A stretch of 55,811 nucleotides of DNA, from positions 1 to 55,811 of the forward strand of contig JACRPZ010000012.1 of NCBI GenBank assembly GCA_016222905.1. Direction: 5' to 3'. The notes under the pieces are model-generated. The model did no database searches. It worked only from the letters and a program-made list of their open reading frames with translations, and was not told where the DNA came from. Of the stretch, positions 23,323 to 55,811 are shown in pieces. How positions within the stretch are numbered: the first letter of the stretch is position 1; each line of letters opens with the position of its first letter. The stretch is from Nitrospirota bacterium (GTDB taxonomy: Bacteria; Nitrospirota; Thermodesulfovibrionia; UBA6902). Made by a program: the position numbers and the translations under genes.

Positions 23323-23622
23323 TTCATTCTACAATTCGCTACAAATTCCGGTTATCCAGCGCTATTTAGTATAAATGTACTTGTATCTGTGCTGTCAAGA
23401 AGATTCATAGACAGGCAGAGATTGAATCATCTGCATAACTTGCTGTTTAACGGCTGCCATTTAAACCACCTCTTTAATGTTCTTGGAGTAATTATAAAAC
23501 AATCCATCAAAAATCGGGTATAACGAAAAGAAGCCTGTGGGAAAGAGCGATTTTGAAGCGGATGTTTATGGTAAAATAATAACTTCTTAAATTCGGCAGG
23601 TTGATAGAATCGGAGGCAGCGG
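23323..23622. other. Intergenic region between the signalling operon and leuS
   Basis: This 300-base divergent region contains the likely kinase promoter (23368-23398) and the leuS ribosome binding site (CGGAGG, 23611-23616). No gene or RNA is recognised. Confidence 0.5.
23368..23398 (-). promoter_or_regulatory. Sigma-70-type promoter for the kinase operon
   Basis: On the minus strand a consensus TTGACA (23398-23393) is followed after 19 bases by TATACT (23373-23368). The spacing is one or two bases longer than ideal. It lies 46 bases upstream of the kinase ATG. Confidence 0.45.
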
Positions 23623-26049
23623 TTGGAAGAGAAGTACAGCTCGAAAAAAGCAGAGAAAAAATGGCAGGAATTCTGGGAATCCGAAGGGCTCTTCAGGGCG
23701 TCAGAGAATGCTGAAGCGCCTAAATTCTACTGTCTTGAGATGTTCCCTTACCCTTCCGGCAGGATCCATATGGGGCACGTAAGAAACTACGTGATAGGCG
23801 ATGTCATAGCGAGGTATAAAAGAATGCGCGGCTTTAATGTCCTGCATCCTATGGGATGGGACGCATTCGGTCTGCCTGCTGAAAATGCCGCGATAAAGCA
23901 CGGTCTGCACCCTTCAAAGTGGACTCATGAGAATATTGATTATATGAGGGGGCAGTTGAAGAAGCTCGGCCTTGGTTATGACTGGCAGAGAGAGGTGGCG
24001 ACTTGCGAGCCTGATTACTATAAGTGGAACCAGTGGTTCTTTCTCAAAATGCTTGAGAGAGGGCTTGCGTACAAGAAGATGTCGTCGGTCAACTGGTGTC
24101 CTTCCTGCGAGACTGTGCTTGCGAATGAGCAGGTGCTGGACGGGCTCTGCTGGCGATGCGACAGCACTGTTGCGCCAAAAGAGCTTGAGCAGTGGTTTTT
24201 CAAGATAACCGATTATGCGGAGGAGCTTCTCAGCGGCCTCGACAGTCTGAATAACTGGCCTGAAAGGGTTGTCGCAATGCAGCGCAACTGGATTGGAAGG
24301 AGCGAAGGGGTTGAGGTTGATTTCCACGTTCATAATTCAGACCATAAGATCAGGATATTTACTACAAGGCAGGATACGCTTTACGGCGCAACATTCGTAA
24401 GTATAGCCAAACAACATCCGATTGTATCCGGGTTAATAAGGGACAATAAGATAATAAAAGAGATAGAATCTCTCTCTGATGACCCACTGAAGAAGGAAGG
24501 AGTCTTTACAGGTTTGTATGCCGTAAATCCACTGACAGGAGATAGACTTCCTGTATGGGCGGCAAATTTTGTACTTATGGAGTACGGCACCGGGGCGGTT
24601 ATGGCTGTTCCAGCCCATGACCAGAGGGACTTTGAATTTGCCAAAAAATATGATATCTCTATAAAAATAGTTGTAGCGCCGGAGAATAAAGAAGATGGAC
24701 CCATTTCACAGGCCTTTGAAGACGACGGCATTCTCGTAAACTCCGCTCAATTCTCCGGCCTTCCAAGCTCGGAGGCAAGGAAGAAGATTGCAGATTATAT
24801 CGAACAAAACGGTTTTGGAAAGAAGGTTGTGAATTACAAACTGAGGGATTGGGGCATATCACGTCAGAGATACTGGGGAACGCCGATACCGGTCATATAC
24901 TGTAATACATGCGGAGTCGTGCCTGTGCCAGAGAATGAACTTCCTGTTTTACTCCCTGAAGATCTCATGGTTACAGGCAAGGGCACATCCCCTTTGGCCG
25001 GAGCAGAGAGTTTTGTTAAAACAACATGTCCTGTTTGCAAAGGCATTGCAAGGAGGGAGACTGACACTATGGATACCTTTGTTGATTCGTCATGGTATTT
25101 CATAAGATATTGCTCTCCCAAAGCAGGCGATAAACCCGTTGACTCAAAGGCTGTTGACTACTGGATGTCTGTTGACCAGTATATAGGCGGCATTGAGCAC
25201 GCTGTTTTGCACCTGCTCTATTCGAGGTTCTTCACAAAGGTTATCAGAGACCTGGGCTTAATTAAGGTGAATGAGCCTTTTGAGAGGCTGCTGACTCAGG
25301 GGATGGTTATAAAAGACGGCGCAAAAATGTCCAAATCAAAAGGCAATGTGGTGGACCCCGATTCTATGCTGGATAAATACGGAGCTGACACATTAAGGCT
25401 CTTCTGTCTCTTTGCCGCGCCTCCTGAGAAGGACCTTGAATGGTCTGACAAGGGAGTTGAGGGCGCATATCGTTTTCTAAACAGGGCCTGGGGACTGCTC
25501 TATAAAAATCGCGATAAGCTTCAAGCAGCAAATAATAGTAATTCGTTGAATTCAGCAGACGTATCAAGTTTGTTAAGAAAGACGCATCAGACAATAAAGA
25601 AGGTCACAAAGAGCATAGAGAGTGATTATCATTTTAATACAGCCATTGCAGCTTTGATGGAACTTGTAAATGAGACCATGACATCTGACCTTTCAACTCC
25701 TGAGCACATTGAGGCGCTGAGGTTCAGCATTAAAAATATGATCCTGCTTCTTGCGCCTTTTGCCCCGCACATAACCGAAGAGATGTGGAGAGAGATTGGC
25801 GAGCAGGGGAGCATATTTAACGAAAAATGGCCTATTTGGGATGAAGAGGCGGCAAAGGAAGAGGAGATAGAGCTTGTTATCCAGATCAACGGCAAGGTAA
25901 AGGGCAAGGCCATGATACCTGCCGGATGTGATGATGAAGCAATTCAGGAGAGGGCTTTCAGTGATTCAAAGATAAGAGAATATATCGGTAATAAAACTCT
26001 TAAAAAAGTTATTATTATTAAAGGCAGGCTTGTTAATATAGTAATCTAA
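23623..26049 (+). CDS. leuS: Leucyl-tRNA synthetase
   Basis: This 808-residue class I synthetase charges tRNA-Leu. The HIGH motif is HMGH at 49-52, and the KMSKS motif is AKMSKSKGN near residue 570. The editing domain lies in between. A zinc-knuckle pair is visible (CPSC, CWRC around 165-190), as is the [17 protein letters not shown] anticodon-domain segment. The length is slightly short of E. coli (860). The start is TTG after CGGAGG. An in-frame upstream ATG is not available. lptE and holA follow in the same direction. Its tRNA-Leu(UAA) substrate is encoded at 49787. Confidence 0.97.
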
Positions 26050-35643: not shown

Positions 35644-35889
35644 ATGATAATAAGAGAAGACAAAAGCGATGATTCATATCTGTTCCAGTCGCAGGGAAAA
35701 AAAGAAGTGAAAATGAGAACATTGCAGGATATTATAGACTGTCTTCTAAGTGATAGCGAGAAAGAGTGTAAGCATTGCAAGAAGGTAGTTACGTGTGGAT
35801 TCACATGGCAGGCATTATTTACCCTGAATTCTTATCAGGGAGAAGGAGGCTTTAATGACTACGCGCAAAACCGTACTGTTGGTGGATGA
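35644..35889 (+). CDS. Small cysteine-containing hypothetical protein
   Basis: I do not recognise the family. The 81-residue product is hydrophilic with a cysteine cluster CKHCKKVVTC (about residues 43-52), a possible metal- or redox-binding site. It has a strong AAGGAGGG site. Its end overlaps the response regulator by 35 bases in another frame. The overlap suggests coupled translation, and the last ~12 residues may be incidental. Confidence 0.6.
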   Translation: MIIREDKSDDSYLFQSQGKKEVKMRTLQDIIDCLLSDSEKECKHCKKVVTCGFTWQALFTLNSYQGEGGFNDYAQNRTVGG

Positions 35890-36244
35890 TGAGAAGACTT
35901 TCTTGATGAGCTTGTCAGAAGGACTCGTCATGTTAAACAAAAATCTGAATGTGTTAACAGCGGAAAACGGAGAAGAGGCGATGGAGATTTTAAATTCTTC
36001 AAAGATTGACCTGCTCATCACTGACCTGAAAATGCCGAAAAAAGACGGCTTTGATTTACTGAAGCATGTATTGAAATATACCCCGGGTTTGCCGGCTATT
36101 GTGATGACGGCACATTACGATGAGAATATGTTTAGAGGCTTGAATGTGATAGGTTGGCAATGTATAGAGAAACCTCTGGATTTTGACGAGCTTTCCGAAC
36201 AGGTATGCAGTCTTCTTGAGAAAGTGGACAGGGTATGTGTATAG
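35855..36244 (+). CDS. Single-domain response regulator
   Basis: This 129-residue stand-alone REC domain has acidic residues D11, D12 and E13, phosphoacceptor D57 (LLITDLKMPKKDGFDLL), T in VMTAHYDE and lysine in CIEKPLDFDEL. It has no output domain. The ATG follows AGAAGGAGG. It follows the small cysteine protein, and both sit behind a sigma-54-like promoter, so phosphorelay to a separate activator is possible. Confidence 0.85.
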   Translation: MTTRKTVLLVDDEKTFLMSLSEGLVMLNKNLNVLTAENGEEAMEILNSSKIDLLITDLKMPKKDGFDLLKHVLKYTPGLPAIVMTAHYDENMFRGLNVIGWQCIEKPLDFDELSEQVCSLLEKVDRVCV

Positions 36245-36562: not shown

Positions 36563-39500
36563 ATGAAAAAAGAATATTTTTTGACAATGCTAAAGCTCTA
36601 TGTGATATTTTCATTATTCATTTTCATGGCGCTTGTTCCTTCAGGCGCCATGGCGTTTAACCTGAATGTCGTAGATGAGACAGGGGCTCCTGTTTCAGGC
36701 TTTCGCTGGGTTTTGGAAGAAGATACGACTCATCCAGTGGACCCCGGGGTGCCTGTGTCTGACAGTCTTGCGGTGAGCATACACAAGAGCTATGCGCCGG
36801 TTGTAACAAATGGCAAGACTAACGGATCGAGTGCAACGGTGAATGTTCCAAGTACCAAACGGTATGCCTTATCGGTAATGGCGAATGCATCCGGATACAC
36901 TATCGGGGGAACAAATGTTAAAGTCGGGCAGAATCAGGTGACTGTCACTCTCCATAAGCATCCGATTCCATCAGCGCAGGCTTCCATTTTTGTTTTTCAT
37001 GATAATATGCCTATAAATAATGCGCCGGACATTCCTTTTGAAGAAGGACTTTCAAATTTCAGTGTTTACATATACGACCAGATGGGACAGATGACAGTTG
37101 ACGCCTTTGGGAATGCATTGGGCACTACTTACAATCCGGACGGAAGCGTGAACACCATGGGAAGCGGGGTTATCCTGACAGATGTAAACGGCGAGGCTGT
37201 AATCAAAAACCTGCCGCCGGGGAAATACGGCATACGCGTAGTGCCTGACGCCGCTCACGCAAACTGGATTCAAAATAACACAATAGAAGGCACTCCCGGG
37301 ATTGACGTATGGATAAAGGCCGGAGAGCCTTTGCTTCTGAGAGAGTTCGGAGCGGCTCTTTATCATGTCTTTTATGGTTTTGTTCCGCCATCTAATGAAC
37401 TGGGAACATTGCCGAATCCGGGCGGGAACACAGGGACAATAACCGGGCAGGTTATAAAAGCCCATCAGAGCCGCCCCCCTTTGTTTACAATCGAGGCCGG
37501 GGAGGCTGCGTCCGATTGTTATGTCGGACTTAATACTATGGGGGCCGGAACGCAACGAGGTGTTTATGTTGCCGCTTGCAACCCGGACGGCTCTTTTACG
37601 ATTGACAATGTCCCTCCGGGCACTTACCAGATCGTAATATGGGACAGACCTCTTGACATTATCTTTGCTTTCAGGACGGCGATAGTCCCTGACACGCCCG
37701 GGGCATCGGTAGACCTCGGACAGATACCGGTCAACATGTGGTTCGGGACACTTGAGGGAAGCGTATTTTACGATACAAATGAGAATGGTTTTATGGATGA
37801 CGGCGAGACCGGATTAAGCCAGCAGGCCATCAACCTGCGTTTCCGCGACGGCTCGATTTACCAGGCAGCCATGACTATGGGCGACGGCTCATATGAATTA
37901 ACAGAGGTATTCCCGTTCTTTAAATATTTAATAACAGAAGTTGACTTTGCGCGCTTCAAGGCAACCGGGGCCACAATAGTAGTGGATGACGGCGGGGTGA
38001 TACCGGCGGATGCGGGATGGGCCATGCCGTCTGAAGATAAGAGAACCCCCCAGCTTCAGGCAGGTATAAACCCAAATACAGGCAATAACCTGTCAAGGAC
38101 GGAACTTAGCCTGGATGAAAACGGTTTTTACGCGCCTGTCCTTCTTGAGGCAATGACTCTTTATGCGGACCAGAACAACAGGATTGACTGGGGCAAGGTG
38201 CAATATCCTGAAGGCCAGAACGGCGGCATAAGCGGGATTGTATATTATGGGGTTACACGGGCGGAAAATGACCCCAGACAGGGGACCGGTGAGCCGTGGG
38301 AACCCGGCATCCCGCGGGTTCAGGTTAATCTTTATCAGGATCAAGACGGAAACGGAGTGATTGATAATATAAACGGGGTTGCAGGTATTCAGAAGGCTGA
38401 TGTTGATAACTATCCCTTTGGATGGCTGGACGGCATTGCTCCTAAGGGGACAGAGGATGTAGATAGAAATGGAAACGGTGTTTTTGATTATGGCGACGCC
38501 CTTGAAATTACCGCCACAGACAGTTGGGATGACAATCTGCCCACAGAATGTCTTGACAGCAATGGAAATATTGATGTACAGACGGCCAATGGCCAGCCTA
38601 TTATAAACTGTGCTGAAACTATGCGCACATGGAACCAGGTGCGGCCGGGAGTTTTTGACGGCGGATATGCTTTTGCAGGAGAAAACGGCCTGCCTGCAGG
38701 AACCTACATCGTAGAGGCAGTCCCTCCTCCGGGATACGAAATTGTTAAGGAGGAGAACAAGAATGTTGATTTTGGAGATGAATATACACCATCTCTTGTT
38801 GTTCTTAAGAAGCCGCCCCCATGCGTGGGCGATATGCATCCTGTTCCTCAATACCTCACGTTATTTCCCGACCAGTTTGTAGAGGTAGTCGGCTGGACCC
38901 CGGGAATGACAAGACCCTTATGCGACCTAAAGCAGGTAGTAGTTGCTGACTGGATAAACGTTGCTGCCGACTTCCATATATTTACCGAAGTCCCTAAGGC
39001 TGCCCGTGGAGTCGGTCTTATTACTAATGACCTCGGTCTTACCCTTCCGAATGCACAGGTTATTGTTGAGAAATTTGCTCCTTCCTGGATACCTGTTTCT
39101 TTCAAATATTTTGACGGTAAAGAGATAACAAGGGTTTACAGCGATGAGTTCGGCGGATATAATGTCCTTTTGCCGTCTACATATACTATTAATCCGCCTA
39201 TCCCCACAGGGGTATCTCCGCATATGATTGACGTATGCCTTAATGACCCCGGGCCTATACCTGACCCAAACGATGCCGGACAATTTATCACTGACCCGTA
39301 TTATAAACCGTCATTAAGTCATGTTTGTTATACACTGGATTTCTGGCCCGGCAAGACAACATATCTTGACACTCCCCTCATTCCAGTTGCAGCTTTTACC
39401 GGGGCTGTTACCACAACGCTGGATTGCGAATATTCTGATGGAACGCCTGAGATTTATTCTGTAACAGGACCGGGATCAAGAGGGCCTTATATTTCAGGCA

Positions 39501-41794
39501 CTGGTCAGTTAATAACCATAACATCTGTCGGGTTAAAATTGGTGCCGAACCCTGCATACAATCCTCAAAACCCGGGGTTTGAGCCCCAGTTGATATACCG
39601 TGATTACGGTTTTGGAAGCGTCAAAGGCTCGGTAAAAGTCGGGAATGTCACAATCCCGTCTGCAAATGTAATCTGGGCAGCTGACGGCAAGACAATTTCA
39701 GCCACAATCCCTGCAGGTGTTACCACAGGAGAGCTTATTATTATCAGAGGAGACAATAAAAATTCTACTCCTGTGGGCATAACCCTTAATGTGGGAGGCC
39801 CCGCTCCTTTGGAAGTCGGGTTATCCAAGCCTTTCAAAACCATACAGTCTGCAATTGATGCGGCCTCCGCAGGCGCGCTCATTACGGTTTCCCCCGGGGT
39901 ATACAATGAGAATATAATCATGTACAAAAAAGTAAAACTTCAGGGATGGGGAGCTGCCTCAACGATTATCAATGCCTTTTTCAGCCAGCAGAAGGCGCAG
40001 GCTTGGCATACCAGGGTGAATGCCCTTATCAGTTCAGGCATTGTGAGTCAAGTCCCCGGGCAGGATACAGCGTTCCTGACAGAAGAAGGCGCCGGCATTA
40101 TTGTGTTGGCAAAAAATGAGATCAGCCCCAATAATGCAAAGATCGATGGTTTGACCATCAGAGGAGCGAGTCCGGGAGGCGGAATATTTGTCAACGGATA
40201 CGCCCGTAACCTCGAGATAAGCAACAACAAGATAATGAACAATCAGGGCGCTTCCGGCGGCGGCATCAGGATAGGCACCCCGTCGCTCACAGACCCCTCA
40301 TGCACCGGGCACTGCAGTTCTAATAACGACAATATTAAAATCCACCACAATTACATAAGCAAAAACGGTCAAAGCGGGGCTGCCTTCGCAGGCCAGTTCA
40401 GCGGCGGCGGCGGGGTCTCGTTATATAATGGAGCGGACAACTACCAGTTAACAGAAAACTTCATCTGCGGCAACTTCACTACTAATGAGGGCGGCGGTGT
40501 AGTACATTTCGGAAAGAGCAACCCCGGTTCAATAGAAAACAATAAGATTATCTTTAATGAAGCATCCTTTGGCGCCACAGCTTCCGGAGGCAGCGCAGGC
40601 GGCATATTGATTTCAGGCGAGCCCGCACCGGCCGGAGCGCCGGGGAATCTGACACCCGGCACAGGCTCTGTACTAATCAATGCCAATCTCATTCAGGGAA
40701 ATCTTGCAGGAGCCGGACTTGGCAGTGGGATCTACGCTTCATTTGTCAACGGGCAGGATGTATTTGCCTCGCCGGGCAGTTCAGCGCCGTGGTATTACCT
40801 CAATATATTTAACAATATTATCGTAAACAATGTTGCAGGTTTTGCCGGTGCAGTAGCGCTGCAGGATGTGGCAAATGCCAGTATCATCAATAATACCATT
40901 ATGAACAACGACAGCACGGCTACAGGTATCAGGGCCTTTGGCGGCGGACTGCAAATATCAGCCCCGCAAGGTGCCGGTATTGTATCGGAACTGCACAGCC
41001 CCGCTTTGAGTAGTATAGGAGGCTTTACTCAGACATTCTCAAATCCTGTTCTCGTAAACAATGTCATCTGGCATAACAGGTCTTTCTACTATGATGCGAC
41101 GTTAAACGGCGGACAGGGAGGGCTTCTGGCAGATCCGTCCGGTCCATACTGGGATCTGGCTGTAACAGGGAGTCCCAAGTTTTTTGGGCCTGCCGACCCG
41201 CATATGAACCCGCAGTATTGCATCCTAACAAGTACAGCCGGATACACGGGCGCAGGGAATTTCTCTGTTGATCCCTCTGTTGTTTCACAATACCTTAATA
41301 CTATTGTTTCCGCTGCGTCACCGGGAGAAGGGGGCAACTTTATATCCGTATACCAGACACTGCTGTCTCTTGCCGGAAACTATCATATCAAAAGCGGGTC
41401 TCCGGCCATAAACACCGGAAATAACGGTTATCTCTCGCTGTTACCGCGTCTCCAGAAGGACTTTGATGCACAGGTCCGGCCGAACGGCACGACGTCAGAT
41501 ATAGGCGCTGATGAATTATATGCAGTTGCAGCGGGCTGCGCATATTCTATCTCTCCGCTCAATAAATCCTTTGGCAAGGCCGGCGGTACGGGCACGGTGA
41601 ATGTAACAACATCCGCAAGCTGCATCTGGACATCAAGGAGCAATGTGAGTTGGATTGCCATTACGTCGGGGAGCAGCAGAATCGGCAGTGGAACGACAAC
41701 ATACAGAGTCAATGCAAACACGGGTTCAGCTTCAAGGACAGGCTCTATAACCATTGCGGGAAAGACATTTACTGTTACACAATCTGCTAATTAA
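36563..41794 (+). CDS. Giant secreted SdrD-like, beta-helix and BACON-domain protein
   Basis: This 1743-residue protein has a signal peptide (residues 1-31, cleaved after AMA). Residues 32-390 carry repeated carboxypeptidase-regulatory/Cna-B-type beta units (for example DGSFTIDNVPPGTYQIVIWD). Two SdrD B-like units with DTNENGFMDDGE and DQDGNGVID calcium-type loops lie at about 395-470 and 550-720. A large right-handed parallel beta-helix (about 1085-1640) begins with IQSAIDAASAGALITVSPGVY. A C-terminal BACON-like domain (1655-1743) has CAYSISPLNKSF and VTQSAN. No sortase or LPxTG motif is seen. Likely an extracellular scaffold or adhesin. It precedes three multicopper-oxidase-like genes, 77 bases away, behind a sigma-54-type promoter. 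The ATG follows AAAGGAGG. Confidence 0.82.
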   Translation: MKKEYFLTMLKLYVIFSLFIFMALVPSGAMAFNLNVVDETGAPVSGFRWVLEEDTTHPVDPGVPVSDSLAVSIHKSYAPVVTNGKTNGSSATVNVPSTKRYALSVMANASGYTIGGTNVKVGQNQVTVTLHKHPIPSAQASIFVFHDNMPINNAPDIPFEEGLSNFSVYIYDQMGQMTVDAFGNALGTTYNPDGSVNTMGSGVILTDVNGEAVIKNLPPGKYGIRVVPDAAHANWIQNNTIEGTPGIDVWIKAGEPLLLREFGAALYHVFYGFVPPSNELGTLPNPGGNTGTITGQVIKAHQSRPPLFTIEAGEAASDCYVGLNTMGAGTQRGVYVAACNPDGSFTIDNVPPGTYQIVIWDRPLDIIFAFRTAIVPDTPGASVDLGQIPVNMWFGTLEGSVFYDTNENGFMDDGETGLSQQAINLRFRDGSIYQAAMTMGDGSYELTEVFPFFKYLITEVDFARFKATGATIVVDDGGVIPADAGWAMPSEDKRTPQLQAGINPNTGNNLSRTELSLDENGFYAPVLLEAMTLYADQNNRIDWGKVQYPEGQNGGISGIVYYGVTRAENDPRQGTGEPWEPGIPRVQVNLYQDQDGNGVIDNINGVAGIQKADVDNYPFGWLDGIAPKGTEDVDRNGNGVFDYGDALEITATDSWDDNLPTECLDSNGNIDVQTANGQPIINCAETMRTWNQVRPGVFDGGYAFAGENGLPAGTYIVEAVPPPGYEIVKEENKNVDFGDEYTPSLVVLKKPPPCVGDMHPVPQYLTLFPDQFVEVVGWTPGMTRPLCDLKQVVVADWINVAADFHIFTEVPKAARGVGLITNDLGLTLPNAQVIVEKFAPSWIPVSFKYFDGKEITRVYSDEFGGYNVLLPSTYTINPPIPTGVSPHMIDVCLNDPGPIPDPNDAGQFITDPYYKPSLSHVCYTLDFWPGKTTYLDTPLIPVAAFTGAVTTTLDCEYSDGTPEIYSVTGPGSRGPYISGTGQLITITSVGLKLVPNPAYNPQNPGFEPQLIYRDYGFGSVKGSVKVGNVTIPSANVIWAADGKTISATIPAGVTTGELIIIRGDNKNSTPVGITLNVGGPAPLEVGLSKPFKTIQSAIDAASAGALITVSPGVYNENIIMYKKVKLQGWGAASTIINAFFSQQKAQAWHTRVNALISSGIVSQVPGQDTAFLTEEGAGIIVLAKNEISPNNAKIDGLTIRGASPGGGIFVNGYARNLEISNNKIMNNQGASGGGIRIGTPSLTDPSCTGHCSSNNDNIKIHHNYISKNGQSGAAFAGQFSGGGGVSLYNGADNYQLTENFICGNFTTNEGGGVVHFGKSNPGSIENNKIIFNEASFGATASGGSAGGILISGEPAPAGAPGNLTPGTGSVLINANLIQGNLAGAGLGSGIYASFVNGQDVFASPGSSAPWYYLNIFNNIIVNNVAGFAGAVALQDVANASIINNTIMNNDSTATGIRAFGGGLQISAPQGAGIVSELHSPALSSIGGFTQTFSNPVLVNNVIWHNRSFYYDATLNGGQGGLLADPSGPYWDLAVTGSPKFFGPADPHMNPQYCILTSTAGYTGAGNFSVDPSVVSQYLNTIVSAASPGEGGNFISVYQTLLSLAGNYHIKSGSPAINTGNNGYLSLLPRLQKDFDAQVRPNGTTSDIGADELYAVAAGCAYSISPLNKSFGKAGGTGTVNVTTSASCIWTSRSNVSWIAITSGSSRIGSGTTTYRVNANTGSASRTGSITIAGKTFTVTQSAN

Positions 41795-41871: not shown

Positions 41872-43089
41872 ATGAATGTCAAGAAACATTTCTTAATTCT
41901 TTTTCTGCTGACCTTTTTATTTATGGTCAGTATCCATCAGTCTGTCGCAGGCGTGTATGTTCAATGTCCGTGCCCTGCCGGAACTCCGATTTCACCGGAT
42001 ACCGGGAATATCGAATGTACAGTCGGGATACGGGATATAGCGTGCAGGTCGGTGACATCAGGAGACGGCTACATAAAGATGGCTGACGGCAGCGACATGT
42101 ATATGTTCGGGTTTGCAGACGTTACAGGTGTTCCGGAAGGCGATGTCATGGGCATGGGGATGCTGAACGCCAATTTTTCAGCGCCGACGATCAGTGTAAA
42201 GGAGGGGCAGGAATTCTACCTTACACTTACTAATGTAGGAATGCTGGTACGTCCTGACCTCTTTGACCCGCATACCATCCATTTCCACGGTTTCCCCAAT
42301 GCCTCTGCTGTGTTTGACGGCGAGCCGATGTCGTCAGTGGCTATCAACATGGGGGCCAGCTTAACCTATTATTACAATCTGGCTGAACCCGGCACCCACA
42401 TGTACCACTGCCATGTGGAAGCCACCGAGCATATGCAGATGGGCATGCTCGGCAATCTGTATGTCCGGCCTGCGCAGGATGATAATGCCGGATTAAAGGA
42501 TATCGGGATAACACCGCCGTTGAATCAGCCATACGCGGGTTTTGCCTATAATGACGGCGACGGCTCAACAGGGTACCATGTGGCATATCCTCTTCAGATG
42601 GCAGGCTTTGACCCTGCATTCCACTGGGCTAATGAGAATGTCCAGCCATTACCTTTTGCAGATATGACAGACACCTATCCAATGATTAACGGAAGAGGAT
42701 ACCCTGATACAATCAATACCGCTGATATTCTCAACGTAAATCTGAACCCTTCTCAAAGAACAAATGCATTGATTACCGCAACTCAGGGACAGAAGATACT
42801 TCTTCGGCTGTCGAGCCTCGGGACGGTTGATTTTTACACAATAACGGTGCTTGGAATACCGATGAATGTGGTGGGACAGGGAGCGAGACTGCTCAGGGGA
42901 CCTGACGGCAAGGACCTGTATTACACTACGAATTCCGTAACGCTCGGCGGCGGCGAGGCAACTGAAGTGCTGCTTGATACTGAAGGAGTGGCGCCTGGTA
43001 CATATTTCCTGTATACAACCAATTTGAATAATTTAAGCAATGACGCGGAGGATTTCGGGGGGATGATGACCGAAATCGTAATCAATTGA
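41872..43089 (+). CDS. Multicopper-oxidase-like protein 1 (HxHG and HCH type-1 motifs)
   Basis: This 405-residue secreted protein has a signal peptide (about 1-26). The first cupredoxin domain (60-200) keeps two of the four copper motifs: HTIHFHG (His137, His139) and YHCHVEATEHMQMGM (His179, Cys180, His181, His187, Met192). The second domain (about 230-405) has lost the ligands: the position of HxxHxH reads TVDFYTITVLG and no WHSH occurs. The protein thus has a type-1 site and only half of the trinuclear ligands. The gene is 15 bases before the next MCO. This resembles the first half of a type C two-domain MCO, but with a degenerate second domain. Alternatives are a T1-only electron-transfer protein. 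Confidence 0.85.
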   Translation: MNVKKHFLILFLLTFLFMVSIHQSVAGVYVQCPCPAGTPISPDTGNIECTVGIRDIACRSVTSGDGYIKMADGSDMYMFGFADVTGVPEGDVMGMGMLNANFSAPTISVKEGQEFYLTLTNVGMLVRPDLFDPHTIHFHGFPNASAVFDGEPMSSVAINMGASLTYYYNLAEPGTHMYHCHVEATEHMQMGMLGNLYVRPAQDDNAGLKDIGITPPLNQPYAGFAYNDGDGSTGYHVAYPLQMAGFDPAFHWANENVQPLPFADMTDTYPMINGRGYPDTINTADILNVNLNPSQRTNALITATQGQKILLRLSSLGTVDFYTITVLGIPMNVVGQGARLLRGPDGKDLYYTTNSVTLGGGEATEVLLDTEGVAPGTYFLYTTNLNNLSNDAEDFGGMMTEIVIN

Positions 43090-43104
43090 AGAGGGGGGGA
43101 TGAC

Positions 43105-44412
43105 ATGAATAAAACTGTTATAAACAAGAAAATATACATAGTCCTAATTTTTATGGCTGTGCTTCAGGCGATATTGCCGGTTGCGGCAAATGCGGTCATT
43201 GACGGCATAGGCGGACCAACTTTTAACCTTACTGCAAAGGCAGGCCGCATAATGACGGGAGATGGTGACTCTGTTTACATGTGGGGTTATGCCAATGGGA
43301 GCGGCTCCATGCAGTTTCCGGGCCCGACATTGATTGTGAATCAGGGAGACCTTGTAACCGTTAACCTTTCAAACCGGCTTTCTATGCCGGTTTCCATAGT
43401 CTTTCCGGGGCAGAGCAGTACAGCAGTTGGTGGAACACAGGGACTTATCACAAAAGAAGCGCCCGCCCTGACCGGAGGTGTGCCGGGGACCGTTACGTAT
43501 ACCTTCACTGCTTCGAATCCGGGTACTTATATGTACCAGAGCGGGACAAGTCCTGAATTGCAGATCGAAATGGGTTTGGTCGGCGCTTTGATTGTCAGGC
43601 CTGGGGTTGCAAACCGGGCATATAACGACCCGTCAACATCCTTTGACCGTGAGTACCTTTTCCTTCTTTCAGAAATGGATCCGGTAATCCATCAGCTTGT
43701 AGAAAACGGAAACATGGCTTTGGTAGACAATACGACCCGTTTTCCTGTTTTATGGTTTATCAATGGACGTAACCTGCCGGATACCATGTCACCGGCTTTT
43801 GCTCCAATCCTTCCGAACCAGCCTTATGATTCTATGCCTATGGCGCACCCGGGGGAAAAAGTTCTCATGAGGATCATCGGCGGTGGAAGGGACCTGCATC
43901 CTTTTCATACACATGGCAATAACCATACCGTTATTGCCCGCGACGGAAGACTTCTGAAGAGCGCTCTGAGTTCCTCTCCGGACCTTGCCATATCGGACTT
44001 TACAACCACATCGGTTCCGGGTGAGACGGTGGACGCTATCTGGACCTGGACAGGAGAAAAACTCGGCTGGGATATATACGGACATAACGGCGCAGAACCG
44101 GGCATCTGTACATCGCCTGATCCAAACGGGTTCGACCCTGTTACCCGTGAATATTGCCCTGACCACGGACAACCTTTTCCTGTAGCGCTTCCTCATCAGC
44201 AGGACCTTACAGACGGAATGTTCTGGAGCGGCAGCCCTTTTCTCGGCACGTCAGGTCCTTTGCCTCCGGGTGAAGGCGGGTTCAATCCATATGCAGGGTT
44301 ATTTTTCATGTGGCATTCTCATGCTGAAAAAGAGTTAACGAACAATAATATATTTGTCGGCGGCATGGCTACAATGGCAGTCATTTTACCACCGGGTGTG
44401 CCTATCCCTTAA
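43105..44412 (+). CDS. Multicopper-oxidase-like protein 2 (HxxHxHG and WHSH motifs)
   Basis: This 435-residue secreted protein has a signal peptide (about 1-30). The first cupredoxin domain (35-165) lacks the copper ligands: MPVSIVFPG replaces HxHG, and TYMYQSGTSPELQIEMGL replaces the HCH motif. The second domain (about 240-430) has LHPFHTHG (His265, His268, His270) and FFMWHSHAEKE (His404, His406), but no type-1 cysteine. These are the two motifs missing from the upstream protein. The RBS is GGGGG before ATG. The gene is 11 bases before MCO-like protein 3. I infer a heteromeric oxidase; independent function as another copper protein remains possible. Confidence 0.85.
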   Translation: MNKTVINKKIYIVLIFMAVLQAILPVAANAVIDGIGGPTFNLTAKAGRIMTGDGDSVYMWGYANGSGSMQFPGPTLIVNQGDLVTVNLSNRLSMPVSIVFPGQSSTAVGGTQGLITKEAPALTGGVPGTVTYTFTASNPGTYMYQSGTSPELQIEMGLVGALIVRPGVANRAYNDPSTSFDREYLFLLSEMDPVIHQLVENGNMALVDNTTRFPVLWFINGRNLPDTMSPAFAPILPNQPYDSMPMAHPGEKVLMRIIGGGRDLHPFHTHGNNHTVIARDGRLLKSALSSSPDLAISDFTTTSVPGETVDAIWTWTGEKLGWDIYGHNGAEPGICTSPDPNGFDPVTREYCPDHGQPFPVALPHQQDLTDGMFWSGSPFLGTSGPLPPGEGGFNPYAGLFFMWHSHAEKELTNNNIFVGGMATMAVILPPGVPIP

Positions 44413-44423
44413 AGGAGGAAGAT

Positions 44424-46223
44424 ATGAAAAATAAAAAATTCAATAAAGCAATCAAGTTTATTTTAATAGCAACTGTCTTCAGTATTCTTATGGCAGGCAT
44501 ATCCTCTGCCGCTGTCATTGATGTCTATTTAAGAGCAGACGTTACGGCAAAAGTCGTCGTCGGTGAATCGGTTGACATGTGGGGATTTGCCCTGTGCGAT
44601 TCCGCATATAATTGCGGTGCACCGACAACCCCGGGTCCTGAACTATCTGCCGTGGAAGGTGACACGCTCAATATCCATCTCAAAAACGACTTAAACGGGC
44701 TTTACAATGAACCTGTCTCTTTGGTCATCCCGGGGCAGGTGACTGCAATGACCCCTGTATGGAACGATGGAACAACCGGGAACAGGCCGGCAGGCGACAC
44801 TACTCGCAGGGTTCGGTCTTTTGCCGCTGAGACGCCTGCGAATGGAACTACAGAAGTGATTTATACGTGGAACAATGTGAAAGCAGGAACCTACCTTTAC
44901 GAGAGCGGCACGCATCCGGCGGTCCAGGTCCAGATGGGACTTTACGGAGCTTTTATAGTAAGACCTGTGACAGCAGGACGGGCATATAACGACCCTTCAA
45001 CCGCATATGACACCGAGCTTACACTACTGTTGAGCGAGATAGACCCTGCACTGCATGCCGCTGTAAGAGATGGAATATACGGAACTGCTGCTTATCCAAG
45101 CACAATAAATTACGCGCCAAGGTATTTTTTGATAAATGGACAAGCCTTTCCTGATGCGGTGCATAGTATAACACTGAATGAAAAAGTTCTCATCCGTTTT
45201 CTGAATGCAGGGCTTAAAACACATATTCCAGCCCTTCAATCACTATATATGAAAATAATTGCCGAAGATGGCAATCCCTATTCTTATGCGAAAGAGCAGT
45301 ATTCAGTGATGTTGCCGGCCATGAAGACAATAGATGCTATATTAACACCACAGACAGTCGGAAGATATGCGGTATATGAACGCGCGCTTAACCTTATAAA
45401 TGCAGCGCAACCTGATGGCGGGATGCTTGCTTATTTAGACGCAGGATCAATCTTTCAATCAGATATTATGACCCTCGTAACCTACTACTACACCAGTATC
45501 TTAAACAGGGCGCCTGAGCCGGGAGGAGCAGAGGGGTGGACAACAGAGATACAACGAATTGTCTCGTTAGGCATAGACATAAAAGAAGGATTCATAGCCC
45601 TTGGCAAGCTCTTCTTCAGCTCAGCAGAATATCTGAACATGGGCACGACAGATAATGCATATGTAATAGACCTGTATGAGACCTTCCTTGGAAGGACACC
45701 TACACAGGGAGAGGCGGATTACTGGGCAGGTCAGCTTGCAGGGGGATTAACACGTAACCTGTTATTAAACTACTTCATATTCAGTCAGGAGTTCATGCAG
45801 TATATGAATGGGATATTCGGCGACACCACAGTAAGACCGGAGTATAACCTTGTCAATGACCTGTACAGGGGATTTCTGAGCAGACTGTCGGATGACGCAG
45901 GGTTCAACTCCTGGCTTGCACAAATGCAGACAGCCCAGTGCAACGGCGATCCGCAGGCCATTAGAGACCTTACATCACAGATAGCGTTATTATTCCTTAA
46001 CAGTCAGGAGTATGCGAACAGGAATACAAGCAACAGCGAGTATATAGAAGACCTGTATAACGGGATACTTAGAAGGGGTGCGGATCTTGCGGGATACCAG
46101 AGCTGGCTTGGAGCGCTTAACGGAGGCACGTATACAAGAGCGGAGATGCTGCAGCTTTTTGTAGACTCAGTGGAGTTTCAGGCAAGGGTGACGGAGGTCA
46201 TAAACGCCGGGTGCAGCCCTTAG
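44424..46223 (+). CDS. Copper-ligand-free cupredoxin protein with C-terminal DUF4214 repeats
   Basis: This 599-residue secreted protein has a signal peptide (about 1-29). Residues 30-345 align with the upstream MCO-like proteins (GTYLYESGTHPAVQVQMGLYGAFIV and AGRAYNDPSTAYD), but no HxH, WHSH or HCH motif remains. Residues 348-599 hold DUF4214 units (YETFLGRTPTQGEADYWAGQL, FIFSQEF and similar), ending VINAGCSP. The same module, about 80% identical by eye, ends the large protein at 52266-55811. A structural or targeting role is likely. The ATG follows AAAGGAGG. Confidence 0.8.
   Translation: MKNKKFNKAIKFILIATVFSILMAGISSAAVIDVYLRADVTAKVVVGESVDMWGFALCDSAYNCGAPTTPGPELSAVEGDTLNIHLKNDLNGLYNEPVSLVIPGQVTAMTPVWNDGTTGNRPAGDTTRRVRSFAAETPANGTTEVIYTWNNVKAGTYLYESGTHPAVQVQMGLYGAFIVRPVTAGRAYNDPSTAYDTELTLLLSEIDPALHAAVRDGIYGTAAYPSTINYAPRYFLINGQAFPDAVHSITLNEKVLIRFLNAGLKTHIPALQSLYMKIIAEDGNPYSYAKEQYSVMLPAMKTIDAILTPQTVGRYAVYERALNLINAAQPDGGMLAYLDAGSIFQSDIMTLVTYYYTSILNRAPEPGGAEGWTTEIQRIVSLGIDIKEGFIALGKLFFSSAEYLNMGTTDNAYVIDLYETFLGRTPTQGEADYWAGQLAGGLTRNLLLNYFIFSQEFMQYMNGIFGDTTVRPEYNLVNDLYRGFLSRLSDDAGFNSWLAQMQTAQCNGDPQAIRDLTSQIALLFLNSQEYANRNTSNSEYIEDLYNGILRRGADLAGYQSWLGALNGGTYTRAEMLQLFVDSVEFQARVTEVINAGCSP
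45463..46220 (+). repeat. DUF4214 module, shared with 52269-53026 (inverted)
   Basis: This ~750-bp stretch encodes two to three DUF4214 units closely similar to the C-terminus of the minus-strand giant protein. Long tracts are nearly identical at the protein level (NRNTSNSEYIEDLYNGILRRGA in both). It is a duplicated or exchanged module of about 250 residues. Confidence 0.8.
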
Positions 46224-46295: not shown

Positions 46296-46754
46296 ATGCA
46301 TAGTCCCAAATTTGTTCAAATATCTAAGGTTACTATAATAATCCTTGCGTTGTTTCTGCCTGCCATAGCCTCAGAAACGGGAAGTAAAGAGCAGGGAATT
46401 TCATCTCCGGCAAAGCAGGTTGATATTAAGGAAAAATGGGGCGTACAGATTCTGGGAATAAGGCTGGCGGCTGGCGGTAATATGCTTGATTTCCGCTACA
46501 GGGTACTGGACACTGCTAAAGCCTCATCATTTTTTGACCGTAAGACCAGGCCATACCTTATAAACCAGGCAAACGGAACAACGCTGCTTGTGCCAAATGC
46601 CCATAAACTCGGACCTCTCCGTCAGACACCCAAAACCCCTCTTGCAGATAAAAATTATTTTATATTCTTTGCAAACCCGGGAGTTGTCAAATCAGGGGAT
46701 AAGGTAACGGTTGTGGTAGGCGATTTCAAGGCAGAGAATCTTGTTGTACAGTAG
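46296..46754 (+). CDS. Small secreted protein in the MCO locus
   Basis: I do not recognise a named family. The 152-residue product has a signal peptide (about 1-27) and a compact soluble domain with EKWGVQILGIRLAAGGNMLDFRYRV, DRKTRPYLI and VVVGDFKAENLVVQ, suggesting a beta-sandwich. It is 72 bases after MCO-like protein 3 on the same strand, so a partner role in the oxidase system is inferred. The ribosome binding site is weak, and the start is therefore uncertain. Confidence 0.6.
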   Translation: MHSPKFVQISKVTIIILALFLPAIASETGSKEQGISSPAKQVDIKEKWGVQILGIRLAAGGNMLDFRYRVLDTAKASSFFDRKTRPYLINQANGTTLLVPNAHKLGPLRQTPKTPLADKNYFIFFANPGVVKSGDKVTVVVGDFKAENLVVQ

Positions 46755-50923: not shown

Positions 50924-51718
50924 CTAATTAACATTTTTCACATGACATTCCTGACAATCCAGATCGGAGAATGATACCTTACCGTGACATGCCCCGCAGT
51001 ATTTGCCGGCAAATATGTCCTGCATGGTATATTTTGTTGTTCCCCTTTTGACTCCGAATATATCAGGATGACAGAGTTCGCAGCCGTTCCAGATAGCATG
51101 TTTTTTGTGAGAAAAAATAATATCAGGCATCCCCGTTATGTTGGATTTAATTTCGGTATCAGCCGAATAATTTAATGCCTTGGTCTTTATTGATATCCCT
51201 TCAAGGTAATCCTTCAGCTTAATAAGCCCTGCCTCTTCCGTTTTAATCCAGTTTATCTTGTCGCCAAACCTTGACATTGGAAATCCTTTTGTGAATTTGT
51301 AGAAGTCTTTCTCAAATGCAACCTTTTGGCCGTATGAGTGGCAGCGCTCGCAGTTCTTCCTGGCCGCAACGCCCGGGACTCCTTTCTCCTCTATGGCAAA
51401 TGCCTCTTTTCCGTTATGACATGCCCCGCAGTACAGGCCGTTGTTATTATCATCCATTGTTGCTTTGGTGCCGCCTGCCTCCATTGCAAACCCTATATCC
51501 ACATGACAGAGCCTGCACGTATACAGCGCCCTGTGAAGCCAGTGGTTATAAACTACCGGCGCCATCTTGTTCTTTTCAGCTAAATTATTCATTACAACAT
51601 TGCCGTATTCATGCCGCGGCGGTTTCTTCTTCCTTACTCCGGCCGGCTGGGCAAATGTCAAGGCTGCAATGCAAAGAACCACAAGAATGACAGTCAGAAA
51701 AATATCTCTTTTTTTCAT
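50924..51718 (-). CDS. Secreted multihaem c-type cytochrome (six CxxCH)
   Basis: This 264-residue protein has a signal peptide (about 1-23, ending TFAQ) and six haem-binding motifs: CRLCH, CGACH, CERCH, CELCH, CGACH and CQECH. Single histidines are available as second ligands (for example VYNHWLH, FSHKKH). The pattern of two similar halves (SHKKH/NHWLH then CxxCH, a TxxTM segment, and CGACH) suggests internal duplication. The likely role is periplasmic electron transfer. The frame stops at TAG (50926-50924), but continues in frame to 50843 with a seventh CxxCH (CKRCH); see findings. The ATG overlaps the upstream gene's stop by four bases. Confidence 0.85.
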   Translation of the reverse strand: MKKRDIFLTVILVVLCIAALTFAQPAGVRKKKPPRHEYGNVVMNNLAEKNKMAPVVYNHWLHRALYTCRLCHVDIGFAMEAGGTKATMDDNNNGLYCGACHNGKEAFAIEEKGVPGVAARKNCERCHSYGQKVAFEKDFYKFTKGFPMSRFGDKINWIKTEEAGLIKLKDYLEGISIKTKALNYSADTEIKSNITGMPDIIFSHKKHAIWNGCELCHPDIFGVKRGTTKYTMQDIFAGKYCGACHGKVSFSDLDCQECHVKNVN

Positions 51719-52265: not shown

Positions 52266-55200
52266 CTAATAAGCGCACCCAGCGTCAATGACCTGCTGAA
52301 CTCTGGTCTGGAATTCGGTTGAGTTAACAAATGCAGTAAGCAGGGTCTCTCGTGTATAAGTGCCGTTATTTAACTGCTCAAGCCAGAAGAGGTAGCCGGA
52401 AAGCTCCGCACCCCTTCTCAGTATACCGTTATACAGGTCTTCTATATACTCGCTATTGCTCGTATTCCTGTTTGCATACTCCTGACTGTTAAGGAATAGT
52501 AATGCCATCTGCAATATGAGGTCTCTTATCTCCTGCGCATTTCCATTGCACTGCGCGGTCTGCATCTGCGCAAGCCAGTAGTTGAACCCCCCATCATCAG
52601 GCAGTCTGCTCAAAAATCCCCTGAACAGGTCATTGACAAGGTTATACTCCGGCCTTACTGATGTGTCGCCGAAATAATCCGTCATGTACTGCATGAACTC
52701 CTGACTGAATATAAAGTAGTTCATAAGAAGATTCCTCGTTAATCCTCCTGAAAGCTCTCCTGCCCAGTAATCTACTTCCGACTGCGACGGTGTCCTGCCA
52801 AGGAAGGTCTCATACAGGTCTGTTATGTATTCATCATCTGTTGTGTTCATATTGATATATTCTGCTGAGTTGAAGAAAAGCTTGCCAAGGGCTATGAATC
52901 CTTCTTTTATGTCTATGCCTAATGCGTCAATCCTCTGTATCTCCGCTGTCCACCCCTCTGCCCCTCCGGGTTCAGGCAACCGGTTAAGAATGCTCTCATA
53001 GTACCAGGTGACAAGGTCCATTATGAGTACGTCCTCGTCCGTTATTGTTACAGTCGTGCTGACTGGCGAACCTGATGAGGCCCCGCCTGTCGGACTACTC
53101 AGCGTTACAGTGAATGTCTCGTCAACTTCAAGCAATGTGTCGTTTATTATATCTACGGTAAAGGTTTTGTTCGATGAATCCCCGTCAGCCCAGCTTAGTG
53201 TGCCGCTCGCAGATGTGTAATCAAAACCGGCTTCTGCTGTCTCGTCTGATGTCTCATAGCTTATTCCAACCGCTCCGCTGCTGCCGCCTGAGCGCGTTGC
53301 AATGATAGTTACTGTTCCGATGTTTTCAGTCACGCTATAGGTAGCTGAACTTAATTGTATCGAGCCGTAGCTGTCATTGTCATTTATGGTATAGGTATGG
53401 GTCGCGGGTGTGCCAATGGTAGCATTTGACGGGCTTGATAATGTTACTGTGAAGTTCTCATTTCCCTCTACTGCCGTGTCATTGATTATCGGCACATTGA
53501 TTGTTTTGCTCATATCTCCGGGGTTAAAGGTCAGTGTCCCGCTTACCGCCGTATAGTCCGAATCTGCTGTGGCTGTGCCATCTGCCGTTGCGTAATTGAC
53601 TGTGACCGTGTTCCCTGATGCCGATGAGAGAGTAACTGCTATTGCCGCAGGTGTTATGGCTTCACTGCCGCTTGATGAGGCTGATTGAAACTGTACAGTG
53701 GGCGGCCCATCATCATCTGTTATCGTTGCCGTATGCACAGTCGTTGAGCCAAGCGTTACATTCGTGGGCGTGCCCATTGTCAGAATTACCGTCTCATTGA
53801 CTTCGACTGCTGTGTCATTTGTTATGGTTATCGTTGCTGTGCCTGTTGTTGAGCCTGCAGGGATCGTTATCGGACTTGCGGTTATTGTATAGTCTGTGCC
53901 GTTTGTTGCAGTGCCTGTTACTGTGAAGGGAACAGTAACAGTAAGCCCTGATGCCTCTGAAAGCTGCGCTGTCACGGTCATCGTCCCGCTCTCATTTGCG
54001 CTTGACTGTCCCGATGATGTCCACTGCACTGAGGGAAGAGAGCCCCCTATGTTAAATATCTGCACAAACTCCATGAGGGAGGTTGAGATGCCATCTGATG
54101 AATAACCCAGCGCCCGGATATAAAAAATCTGGTTTAAAGGCAGGCTCAATCCCGTAAGCTGCCAACCTTCGGATATCCTTGTGCCGCTGCCTAAAGAGGT
54201 CCATATGCTCATATCGTCTGACTTTTCAAAGGCCACCCTCTCTATCTCAGGGGATGTGCCGCTCCTCATCCATGTCAGGCTTGAGCCGTCTTCAGCTGAA
54301 GTGAGTGTCTGTAACGCTGCTTCTGTGTTAGCAAACCGCGCCATATAATTGCGCGCTGTTCCGCTGATGTTTGTGAAAGCTCCGCCTACAAGTATCTTTC
54401 CGTCTGCCTGTAATGCCACGGATAAGACAGACCCATTCGGAACGGGATTATTAAATGAGGTGTCAAGGCTGCCGTCTGCATTCAGCAGCGCTATGTAGTT
54501 GCGTGTTTCCCAGTCTATGCTTGTGAATTGTCCGCCGAGGAGTATCATTCCGTCCGCCCGCACTGCTATGGAATAGACATCGCTATCCGCAATTGGATCA
54601 AATGAAGTGTCAACGCTCCCGTCTGTATTAAGCCGCGCTATACAGTTAACGGGGATTGCGCCGATTGACGTGAATTGTCCGCCGACGAGTATCATTCCGT
54701 CTGCCTGCAGCGCTATTGAATAAACCCAGCTGTCAGCATCGGGATCAAATAATGTGTCAAGGCCCCCGGTTGCATTCAGCCGAGCTATGTAATTGCGCGC
54801 CGTTCCTCCTATGGTCGTGAATTGTCCGCCGATTAGTATCATTCCGTCCGCCTGCAGCGCTATTGAATAAACCCAGCTATCAGCATTGGGATTGAACGAT
54901 GTGTCAAGGCCCCCGGTTGCATTCAGCCGCGCTATGTAATTGCGGGCTGTTCCGCCTACGTTGGTAAAATCTCCTCCGATCAGTATTTTCCCGTCTGTCT
55001 GCACTGCTATGGCATTGACATTGCTATTAGCATTGGGGTTGAATGATGTGTCAAGGCTCCCGTTTGCATTCAGCCGCGCTATGCGGTTGCGTGTTGTTCC
55101 GCCTATTGTTGTGAAACCTCCGCCTATGAGTATCTTTCCGTCGCCCTGCACCGCTATGGACCAGATACCGCTATTCGCATTGGGATTAAAAGATGTGTCA

Positions 55201-55811
55201 AGGCTCCCGTCCGTATTCAGCCGAGCTATGCGGTTACGGGTCGTTCCGCCTATTGTTGTGAAACCTCCTCCTATGAGTATCTTTCCGTCGCCCTGCACTG
55301 CTATAGCATAGACAGCGTTATTGGCATTGGGATTAAACCCATCATCCTCCATTATCGTAGCGGTATGAACCGTGGTTGTGCCGGGCGCTGCGTTTGTGGG
55401 CGTGCCCATTGTCAATATAACGGTCTCGCTGCCTTCTGCTAATGTGTCGTTTATTATGGTTATTGTTGCTGTGCCTGTTGTACTGCCTGCCGGTATGGTT
55501 ATCGGACTTGCGGTTATTGTGTAGTCTGTTCCGTCTGTTGCTGTGCCTGTCACTGCAAACGGTACAGTAACAGCAAACGCCGAAGCTCCTGAGAGCTGCG
55601 CAGTCACTGTCATGGTTCCGCTCTCGTATACGCTTGCCTGGCTTGCGGATGTCCACTGCACTGCGGGGGCAGCATCATCATCCGTTATCGTTGCTGTATG
55701 CACTGTAGTTGCGCCGAGGGTTGCATAGGTGGGTGTGCCCATTGTAAGGATTACGGACTCGTCGCCTTCATATAATGTGTCAGCCGTTATTGTTATCGTT
55801 GCCGTGCCTGT
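52266..55811 (-). CDS. Very large secreted-type protein with Calx-beta, delta-60 and DUF4214 domains (partial)
   Basis: The frame is open to the window edge, so at least 1181 residues are present and the N-terminus is missing. In order: Calx-beta units (GTATITI-type, DYTITASPITIPAG), seven delta-60 repeats of about 49 residues (for example GDGKILIGGGFTTIGGTTRN), a fibronectin-like linker, three further Calx-beta units, and a C-terminal DUF4214 block (YETFLGRTPSQSEVDYWAGEL). Calx-beta domains bind calcium, and delta-60 repeats form beta-propeller-like surfaces. It is likely a surface adhesin. The DUF4214 end is shared with the MCO-like protein at 44424. The internal ATG at 55742 is not the true start. 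Confidence 0.8.
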   Translation of the reverse strand, partial: TGTATITITADTLYEGDESVILTMGTPTYATLGATTVHTATITDDDAAPAVQWTSASQASVYESGTMTVTAQLSGASAFAVTVPFAVTGTATDGTDYTITASPITIPAGSTTGTATITIINDTLAEGSETVILTMGTPTNAAPGTTTVHTATIMEDDGFNPNANNAVYAIAVQGDGKILIGGGFTTIGGTTRNRIARLNTDGSLDTSFNPNANSGIWSIAVQGDGKILIGGGFTTIGGTTRNRIARLNANGSLDTSFNPNANSNVNAIAVQTDGKILIGGDFTNVGGTARNYIARLNATGGLDTSFNPNADSWVYSIALQADGMILIGGQFTTIGGTARNYIARLNATGGLDTLFDPDADSWVYSIALQADGMILVGGQFTSIGAIPVNCIARLNTDGSVDTSFDPIADSDVYSIAVRADGMILLGGQFTSIDWETRNYIALLNADGSLDTSFNNPVPNGSVLSVALQADGKILVGGAFTNISGTARNYMARFANTEAALQTLTSAEDGSSLTWMRSGTSPEIERVAFEKSDDMSIWTSLGSGTRISEGWQLTGLSLPLNQIFYIRALGYSSDGISTSLMEFVQIFNIGGSLPSVQWTSSGQSSANESGTMTVTAQLSEASGLTVTVPFTVTGTATNGTDYTITASPITIPAGSTTGTATITITNDTAVEVNETVILTMGTPTNVTLGSTTVHTATITDDDGPPTVQFQSASSSGSEAITPAAIAVTLSSASGNTVTVNYATADGTATADSDYTAVSGTLTFNPGDMSKTINVPIINDTAVEGNENFTVTLSSPSNATIGTPATHTYTINDNDSYGSIQLSSATYSVTENIGTVTIIATRSGGSSGAVGISYETSDETAEAGFDYTSASGTLSWADGDSSNKTFTVDIINDTLLEVDETFTVTLSSPTGGASSGSPVSTTVTITDEDVLIMDLVTWYYESILNRLPEPGGAEGWTAEIQRIDALGIDIKEGFIALGKLFFNSAEYINMNTTDDEYITDLYETFLGRTPSQSEVDYWAGELSGGLTRNLLMNYFIFSQEFMQYMTDYFGDTSVRPEYNLVNDLFRGFLSRLPDDGGFNYWLAQMQTAQCNGNAQEIRDLILQMALLFLNSQEYANRNTSNSEYIEDLYNGILRRGAELSGYLFWLEQLNNGTYTRETLLTAFVNSTEFQTRVQQVIDAGCAY
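52269..53026 (-). repeat. DUF4214 module, shared with 45463-46220
   Basis: This stretch encodes about 250 residues closely related to the C-terminus of the MCO-like protein 3. Both end in a short tail with AGC followed by two residues. Confidence 0.8.
53690..55680 (-). repeat. Duplicated Calx-beta block flanking the delta-60 array
   Basis: The segments 53690-54030 and 55340-55680 are closely similar in DNA and encode the same type of Calx-beta unit (DYTITASPITIPAG). A third copy begins at about 55670 and runs off the window. The delta-60 repeats (54310-55340) lie between the first two copies. Confidence 0.75.

Follow-up and report, generated by a model that had tools for sequence, protein, structure and literature searches.

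Three genes, p1, p2 and p3, in a contig of 55,811 nucleotides from a Nitrospirota bacterium (assembly GCA_016222905.1, JACRPZ010000012.1; the whole of this stretch is referred to as the window) probably encode a secreted heterotrimer that resembles type C multicopper oxidases (MCOs), shares one trinuclear copper site between two different gene products, uses the product of the neighboring gene p0 as a scaffold and may act on a metal substrate. The initial annotation had assumed a heterodimeric trinuclear site. Sharing of the site by p1 and p2 is supported, as none of the outcomes named there as refuting it was observed, but the term heterodimeric should be replaced by heterotrimeric, because a third paralogue, p3, is conserved as well and trimers are the rule among the relatives known so far. 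The unit is also larger than originally delimited, with p0, p3 and p4 as additional members (Table 1).

Table 1 Genes and copper-ligand motifs of the p0-p4 locus, numbered along the window
Feature	Positions	Strand	Assignment based on
Response-regulator receiver, upstream of p0	35855-36244	+	
p0, giant secreted protein, 1743 aa, first gene of the operon	36563-41794	+	
p1, two-domain MCO subunit, 405 aa	41872-43089	+	Pfam and ligand positions
p1 H134/H137/H139/G140, HTIHFHG, type-1 His plus HxHG	42271-42291	+	
p1 H179-M192, HCHVEATEHMQMGM, type-3 His pair, type-1 Cys180, His187, Met192	42406-42447	+	
p2, two-domain MCO subunit, 435 aa	43105-44412	+	Pfam and ligand positions
p2 H265-G271, HPFHTHG (H265, H268, H270)	43897-43917	+	
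p2 W403-H406, WHSH (H404, H406)	44311-44322	+	
p3, third two-domain MCO paralogue (residues 1 to about 340) with two C-terminal DUF4214	44424-46223	+	
p4, small secreted protein, usual gene after p3	46296-46754	+	

Matches above the Pfam cut-offs were obtained for p1 (PF07732, PF07731, PF00394), p2 (PF07732, PF07731) and p3 (PF07732), and the closest solved homologues returned by a PDB search are the two-domain MCOs 3g5w and 2zwn. Domain 1 of p1 carries PHTIHFHG (H134, H137, H139, G140) and YHCHVEATEHMQMGM (H179, C180, H181, H187, M192). Judged by position, this domain is predicted to hold a complete type-1 site made up of H134, C180, H187 and M192, at the place typical of type C enzymes, and its contribution to a trinuclear centre would be H137, H139, H179 and H181. 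HxH is present at neither of the two expected places of p1 domain 2, which is predicted to be metal-free. The same prediction applies to domain 1 of p2, where VSIVFPG occupies the HxHG position and YQSGT the HCH position. The putative p2 share of the trinuclear histidines, H268, H270, H404 and H406, resides entirely in domain 2. By position, p1 and p2 would thus jointly provide the eight histidines of one trinuclear centre in type C layout, and the full set of a type-1 site (two His, Cys, Met) plus eight trinuclear His is complete only when both proteins are combined. The motifs are located exactly where they had been described, with p1 keeping HxHG and the HCH motif with its type-1 ligands and having lost the other two, and with p2 keeping HxxHxHG and WHSH and having lost HxHG and the type-1 cysteine.

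Conservation was assessed for approximately 99 orthologues that represent some ten phyla. The eight p1 ligands occur in 99 of 99 sequences. For p2, the three histidines of HxxHxH are found in 98 of 98 and the HxH pair in 94 of 94 sequences, the remaining ones having gaps there, and the positions corresponding to HxHG and the type-1 cysteine are invariably taken by other residues. The picture of one active-looking and one degenerate cupredoxin domain per protein, with complementary losses, therefore applies to the whole set and not just to the window. Chance occurrence of the motifs was rejected. The idea that two ordinary MCO genes have each drifted to half a site by local decay has next to no probability: nothing beyond the bare observation in a single genome speaks for it, and it is refuted by ligands that are invariant and losses that are equally fixed across many phyla. 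In addition, none of the approximately 99 p1 or p2 orthologues possesses all four motifs.

Among the first 396 genomes searched from the phylum of the window, 20 yielded a strong match to p1, and the p2 search retrieved the identical 20. A scan of species genomes revealed at least 531 relatives of p1, the best 80 of which were taken as loci. Judging by record titles, these 80 stem from Nitrospirota, Desulfobacterota, Planctomycetota, Acidobacteriota, Verrucomicrobiota, Hydrogenedentes, Myxococcota and beta- and gammaproteobacteria, and their carriers include Methylocaldum, Amphritea, Rhodoferax and Sulfuricella; in one related proteobacterial order the family is sparse (6 of 300 genomes). In 79 of the 80 loci from other genomes p2 follows p1, and the exception is cut by a contig end. 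The two genes thus co-occur, as the proposal of a shared site had required. Their co-occurrence also weighs against a p1 that functions on its own, either as a homotrimeric blue-copper electron carrier or as a nitrite-reductase-like enzyme, next to a p2 that serves as a separate copper-binding or structural protein. Such a division of labor is very improbable. It would agree with the predicted complete type-1 site of p1 and with the presence of copper nitrite reductases among its PDB relatives, but an electron carrier needs neither the half-site of type-2/3 histidines, retained in all 99 orthologues, nor the matching half in p2, and domain 2 of p1 is devoid of a conserved histidine where a nitrite-reductase-like site needs one. 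Furthermore, p1 is set apart from copper nitrite reductases, homotrimers whose type-2 site combines histidines of domain 1 with those of domain 2 in the adjacent chain, by its HCH pair, the lack of HxH in domain 2 and a score far below the NCBIfam cut-off.

The gene order p0-p1-p2-p3 is kept in nearly all loci with enough flanking sequence; p2 is missing only at contig ends, and the same is true for p3 after p2. No copper ligands were found in p3, which appears in the tree as the sister of p2 (support 100/98) and whose C-terminus varies between loci. The p0 protein combines SdrD_B-like, SpaA/CarboxypepD_reg-like, DUF1565 beta-helix and BACON domains and contains about 230 nearly invariant residues. 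It found no match among PDB sequences and is a probable surface scaffold. Single-gene fusions of p1 with p2, suggested as a further line of evidence in the initial annotation, were sought and none was found, nor was any p2-p3 fusion; the MCO-like subunits p1, p2 and p3 are encoded by separate genes in all loci examined. The fusions that do exist join p0 with p1 (8 of 80 loci) and p3 with p0 (L072-L074, L077, L167 and L168; seen in several Nitrospirota and in two genomes of another order), and they argue for a physical association of p3, p0 and p1. Members of the p4 family are present in 51 of 99 loci and in 34 of the 57 in which the contig continues past p3 for over 1.5 kb. They adjoin the operon in many phyla, and p4 matches neither Pfam nor NCBIfam entries. 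Sigma-54-type regulators are encoded close to 32 other loci, SCO1 near 15 loci and a one-haem cytochrome near 19.

AlphaFold2 was run on read-through translations, with a linker composed of the residues translated from the gap between the genes and the signal peptide of the second protein. In the window p1 and p2 share one frame and are 15 bases apart, while all three genes lie in one frame in locus L139 of a Desulfobulbus relative. The p1-p2 model for the window reached a pLDDT of 88.2 and a pTM of 0.89, and the p1-p2-p3 model for L139 reached 86.6 and 0.88, respectively; values below 50 were confined to the linker in the former and to the two linkers in the latter. As uncertain placement would lower pTM far, these values indicate that the chains are placed with confidence, with the caveat that known homotrimers may influence how AlphaFold2 packs paralogues. 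In laccases, the trinuclear centre is held between domains 1 and 3. When aligned by Foldseek over about 750-800 columns with a 440-residue three-domain Thermus laccase, the models gave TM scores of 0.69-0.73 (target-normalised). Laccase matches spanning about 550-600 columns mostly scored only 0.4-0.5, and the in-order match to ceruloplasmin, which covers the chain, scored 0.22-0.31. The scores fit a placement of p1 domain 1 beside p2 domain 2, similar to laccase domain 1 on domain 3, and the low in-order ceruloplasmin value speaks against the opposite ring order with p1 domain 1 facing p3 domain 2. Both the two-protein and the three-protein models are compact, and the two motif sets may thus lie close to each other rather than far apart, as had been anticipated for a shared site. 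Inter-protein covariation in 88 pairs yielded no signal over shuffled pairs.

These models also bear on the question of whether p1 and p2 by themselves make up the enzyme, be it a dimer or a 3+3 hexamer in which they alternate, with p3 merely providing the link to p0. We regard this as unlikely. A p3 that lacks copper ligands and in some lineages forms one protein with p0 would suit such an arrangement, as would the pTM already attained by p1-p2, but p3 retains both cupredoxin domains, groups with p2, is present wherever the contig allows and is modelled together with p1 and p2 as one compact assembly, like the trimeric relatives.

Two-domain homotrimers have a trinuclear copper centre at every interface between domain 1 and domain 2' of the neighboring chain. 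In type C MCOs, the type-1 copper is located in domain 1 and the centre between D1 and D2' (PMC13151041). Like p1, p2 and p3, the type C enzymes 2zwn and 3g5w consist of two cupredoxin domains, and as predicted for p1 their type-1 copper is in domain 1. Their trinuclear histidines are drawn from domain 1 in one chain and from domain 2 in its neighbor, an arrangement that we propose here as well. They differ in being homotrimers with four motifs per polypeptide and three sites, whereas three different chains would form one site in the present case. A single trinuclear centre is likewise all that six-domain MCOs retain (PMC3600357). In this group, which comprises ceruloplasmin, MnxG and bacterial proteins, six cupredoxin domains form a ring, and the single surviving centre lies between domains that belong to different pairs. 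With its one centre, the proposed heterotrimer would be their equivalent encoded by three genes, although six-domain MCOs are one polypeptide and our models do not match the in-order arrangement of ceruloplasmin.

The heterotrimer would operate as follows, and we infer its stoichiometry, copper binding, O2 reduction, scaffold and substrate alike. Only one interface would be active, with p1 domain 1 supplying the type-1 site and four histidines and p2 domain 2 supplying the other four, while both interfaces involving p3 would be blank. Electrons would travel from the substrate to the type-1 copper of p1 and on through Cys180 and His179/His181 to the shared trinuclear centre, at which O2 would be reduced to water. 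The trimer would be attached to p0 as a surface scaffold, SCO1 would supply the copper in loci that have it, and the one-haem cytochrome would serve as a partner in electron exchange. The substrate is most likely a metal such as Fe(II) or Mn(II). A metal appears likelier than a phenol because invariant acidic residues (E183, E186 and D132 of p1) lie beside the type-1 ligands and because of expression data for Sideroxydans lithotrophicus ES-1. Note that several hosts are nominal anaerobes, which is odd for an O2-reducing enzyme and counts against the mechanism put forward here.

In strain ES-1, the cluster Slit_1812-1818 is raised on magnetite, and the report on it describes two MCO proteins with 'canonical' motifs and a larger one without motifs but with adhesin/polysaccharide-lyase-like domains (PMC12016527). 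For ES-1, another study lists a tandem array of three genes for extracellular MCOs together with a copper chaperone and a MofC-like cytochrome, and it states that the tandem-MCO cluster is not homologous to earlier proposed metal oxidoreductases (PMC5566968). With three extracellular cupredoxin proteins, SCO1 and a cytochrome, and with a larger protein that resembles the p3-p0 fusion, the layout of Slit_1812-1818 as described resembles the p1, p2, p3-p0 form of L167 and L168. From this likeness in description and layout, the cluster very probably belongs to the same family as p1-p3. A split site in the ES-1 cluster is not mentioned in the accessible parts of either source (PMC12016527, PMC5566968). 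OmpB/MofA resembles the operon described here in that an extracellular MCO has SCO1 and a MofC-like cytochrome as neighbors, and in its proposed role in metal redox reactions; by description it is set apart from p1-p3 as a single large MCO polypeptide. Our literature search for a split or heteromeric multicopper oxidase site found no paper.

The same complementary half-sites recur in other tandem pairs, termed A and B (L017-L021, L031, L032, L053). The A proteins contain HxHG and HCH in domain 1, some of them with Leu in place of the axial Met, and the B proteins contain two HxH motifs in domain 2. These pairs belong to other clades than p1 and p2 and have the opposite gene order, with the B gene preceding the A gene. 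In the best tree p1 is apart from A, and p2+p3 from B. As clades, neither p1+A (p 0.45) nor p2+p3+B (p 0.36) was rejected by AU tests. Splitting may have occurred once or several times, in the latter case separately in p1/p2 and in the A/B pairs. Single-gene proteins with all four motifs appear only in separate, distant clades outside p1 and p2. The genome of the window encodes a separate MCO of 552 aa with all four motifs in one chain (L079, contig C90, positions 22944-24602), so the host also owns an ordinary MCO.

Taken further, and only tentatively, the operon may represent a widespread class of secreted metal oxidases in which duplication of a two-domain homotrimer and complementary loss led to an obligate heterotrimer with a single shared centre for O2 reduction. 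This heterotrimer would stand midway to six-domain oxidases like ceruloplasmin, be anchored to a giant surface scaffold and oxidize mineral Fe(II) or Mn(II) at oxic-anoxic boundaries. If so, the active centre of a familiar class of enzymes would be put together from two gene products, and annotation gene by gene would miss or misname the enzyme in hundreds of genomes, given the minimum of 531 relatives. A natural intermediate would have come to light on the route that has been proposed to lead from trimers of two-domain proteins to six-domain oxidases. A split-site enzyme would also offer a concrete molecular model for the as yet unexplained Sideroxydans copper-protein cluster made on magnetite.

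Some observations concern the surroundings of the operon. The C-terminal 251 residues of p3, which contain DUF4214, are 79% identical to part of a giant protein encoded at 52266-55811 on the minus strand, which suggests a surface or secretion module common to both proteins. About 4 kb from the operon, the minus strand encodes a protein with six CxxCH haem motifs (50924-51718). Genes for type II secretion pseudopilins or GspF-like proteins lie close to the operon in L108, L070, L167 and L170, and type II secretion is a possible export route for the operon products.
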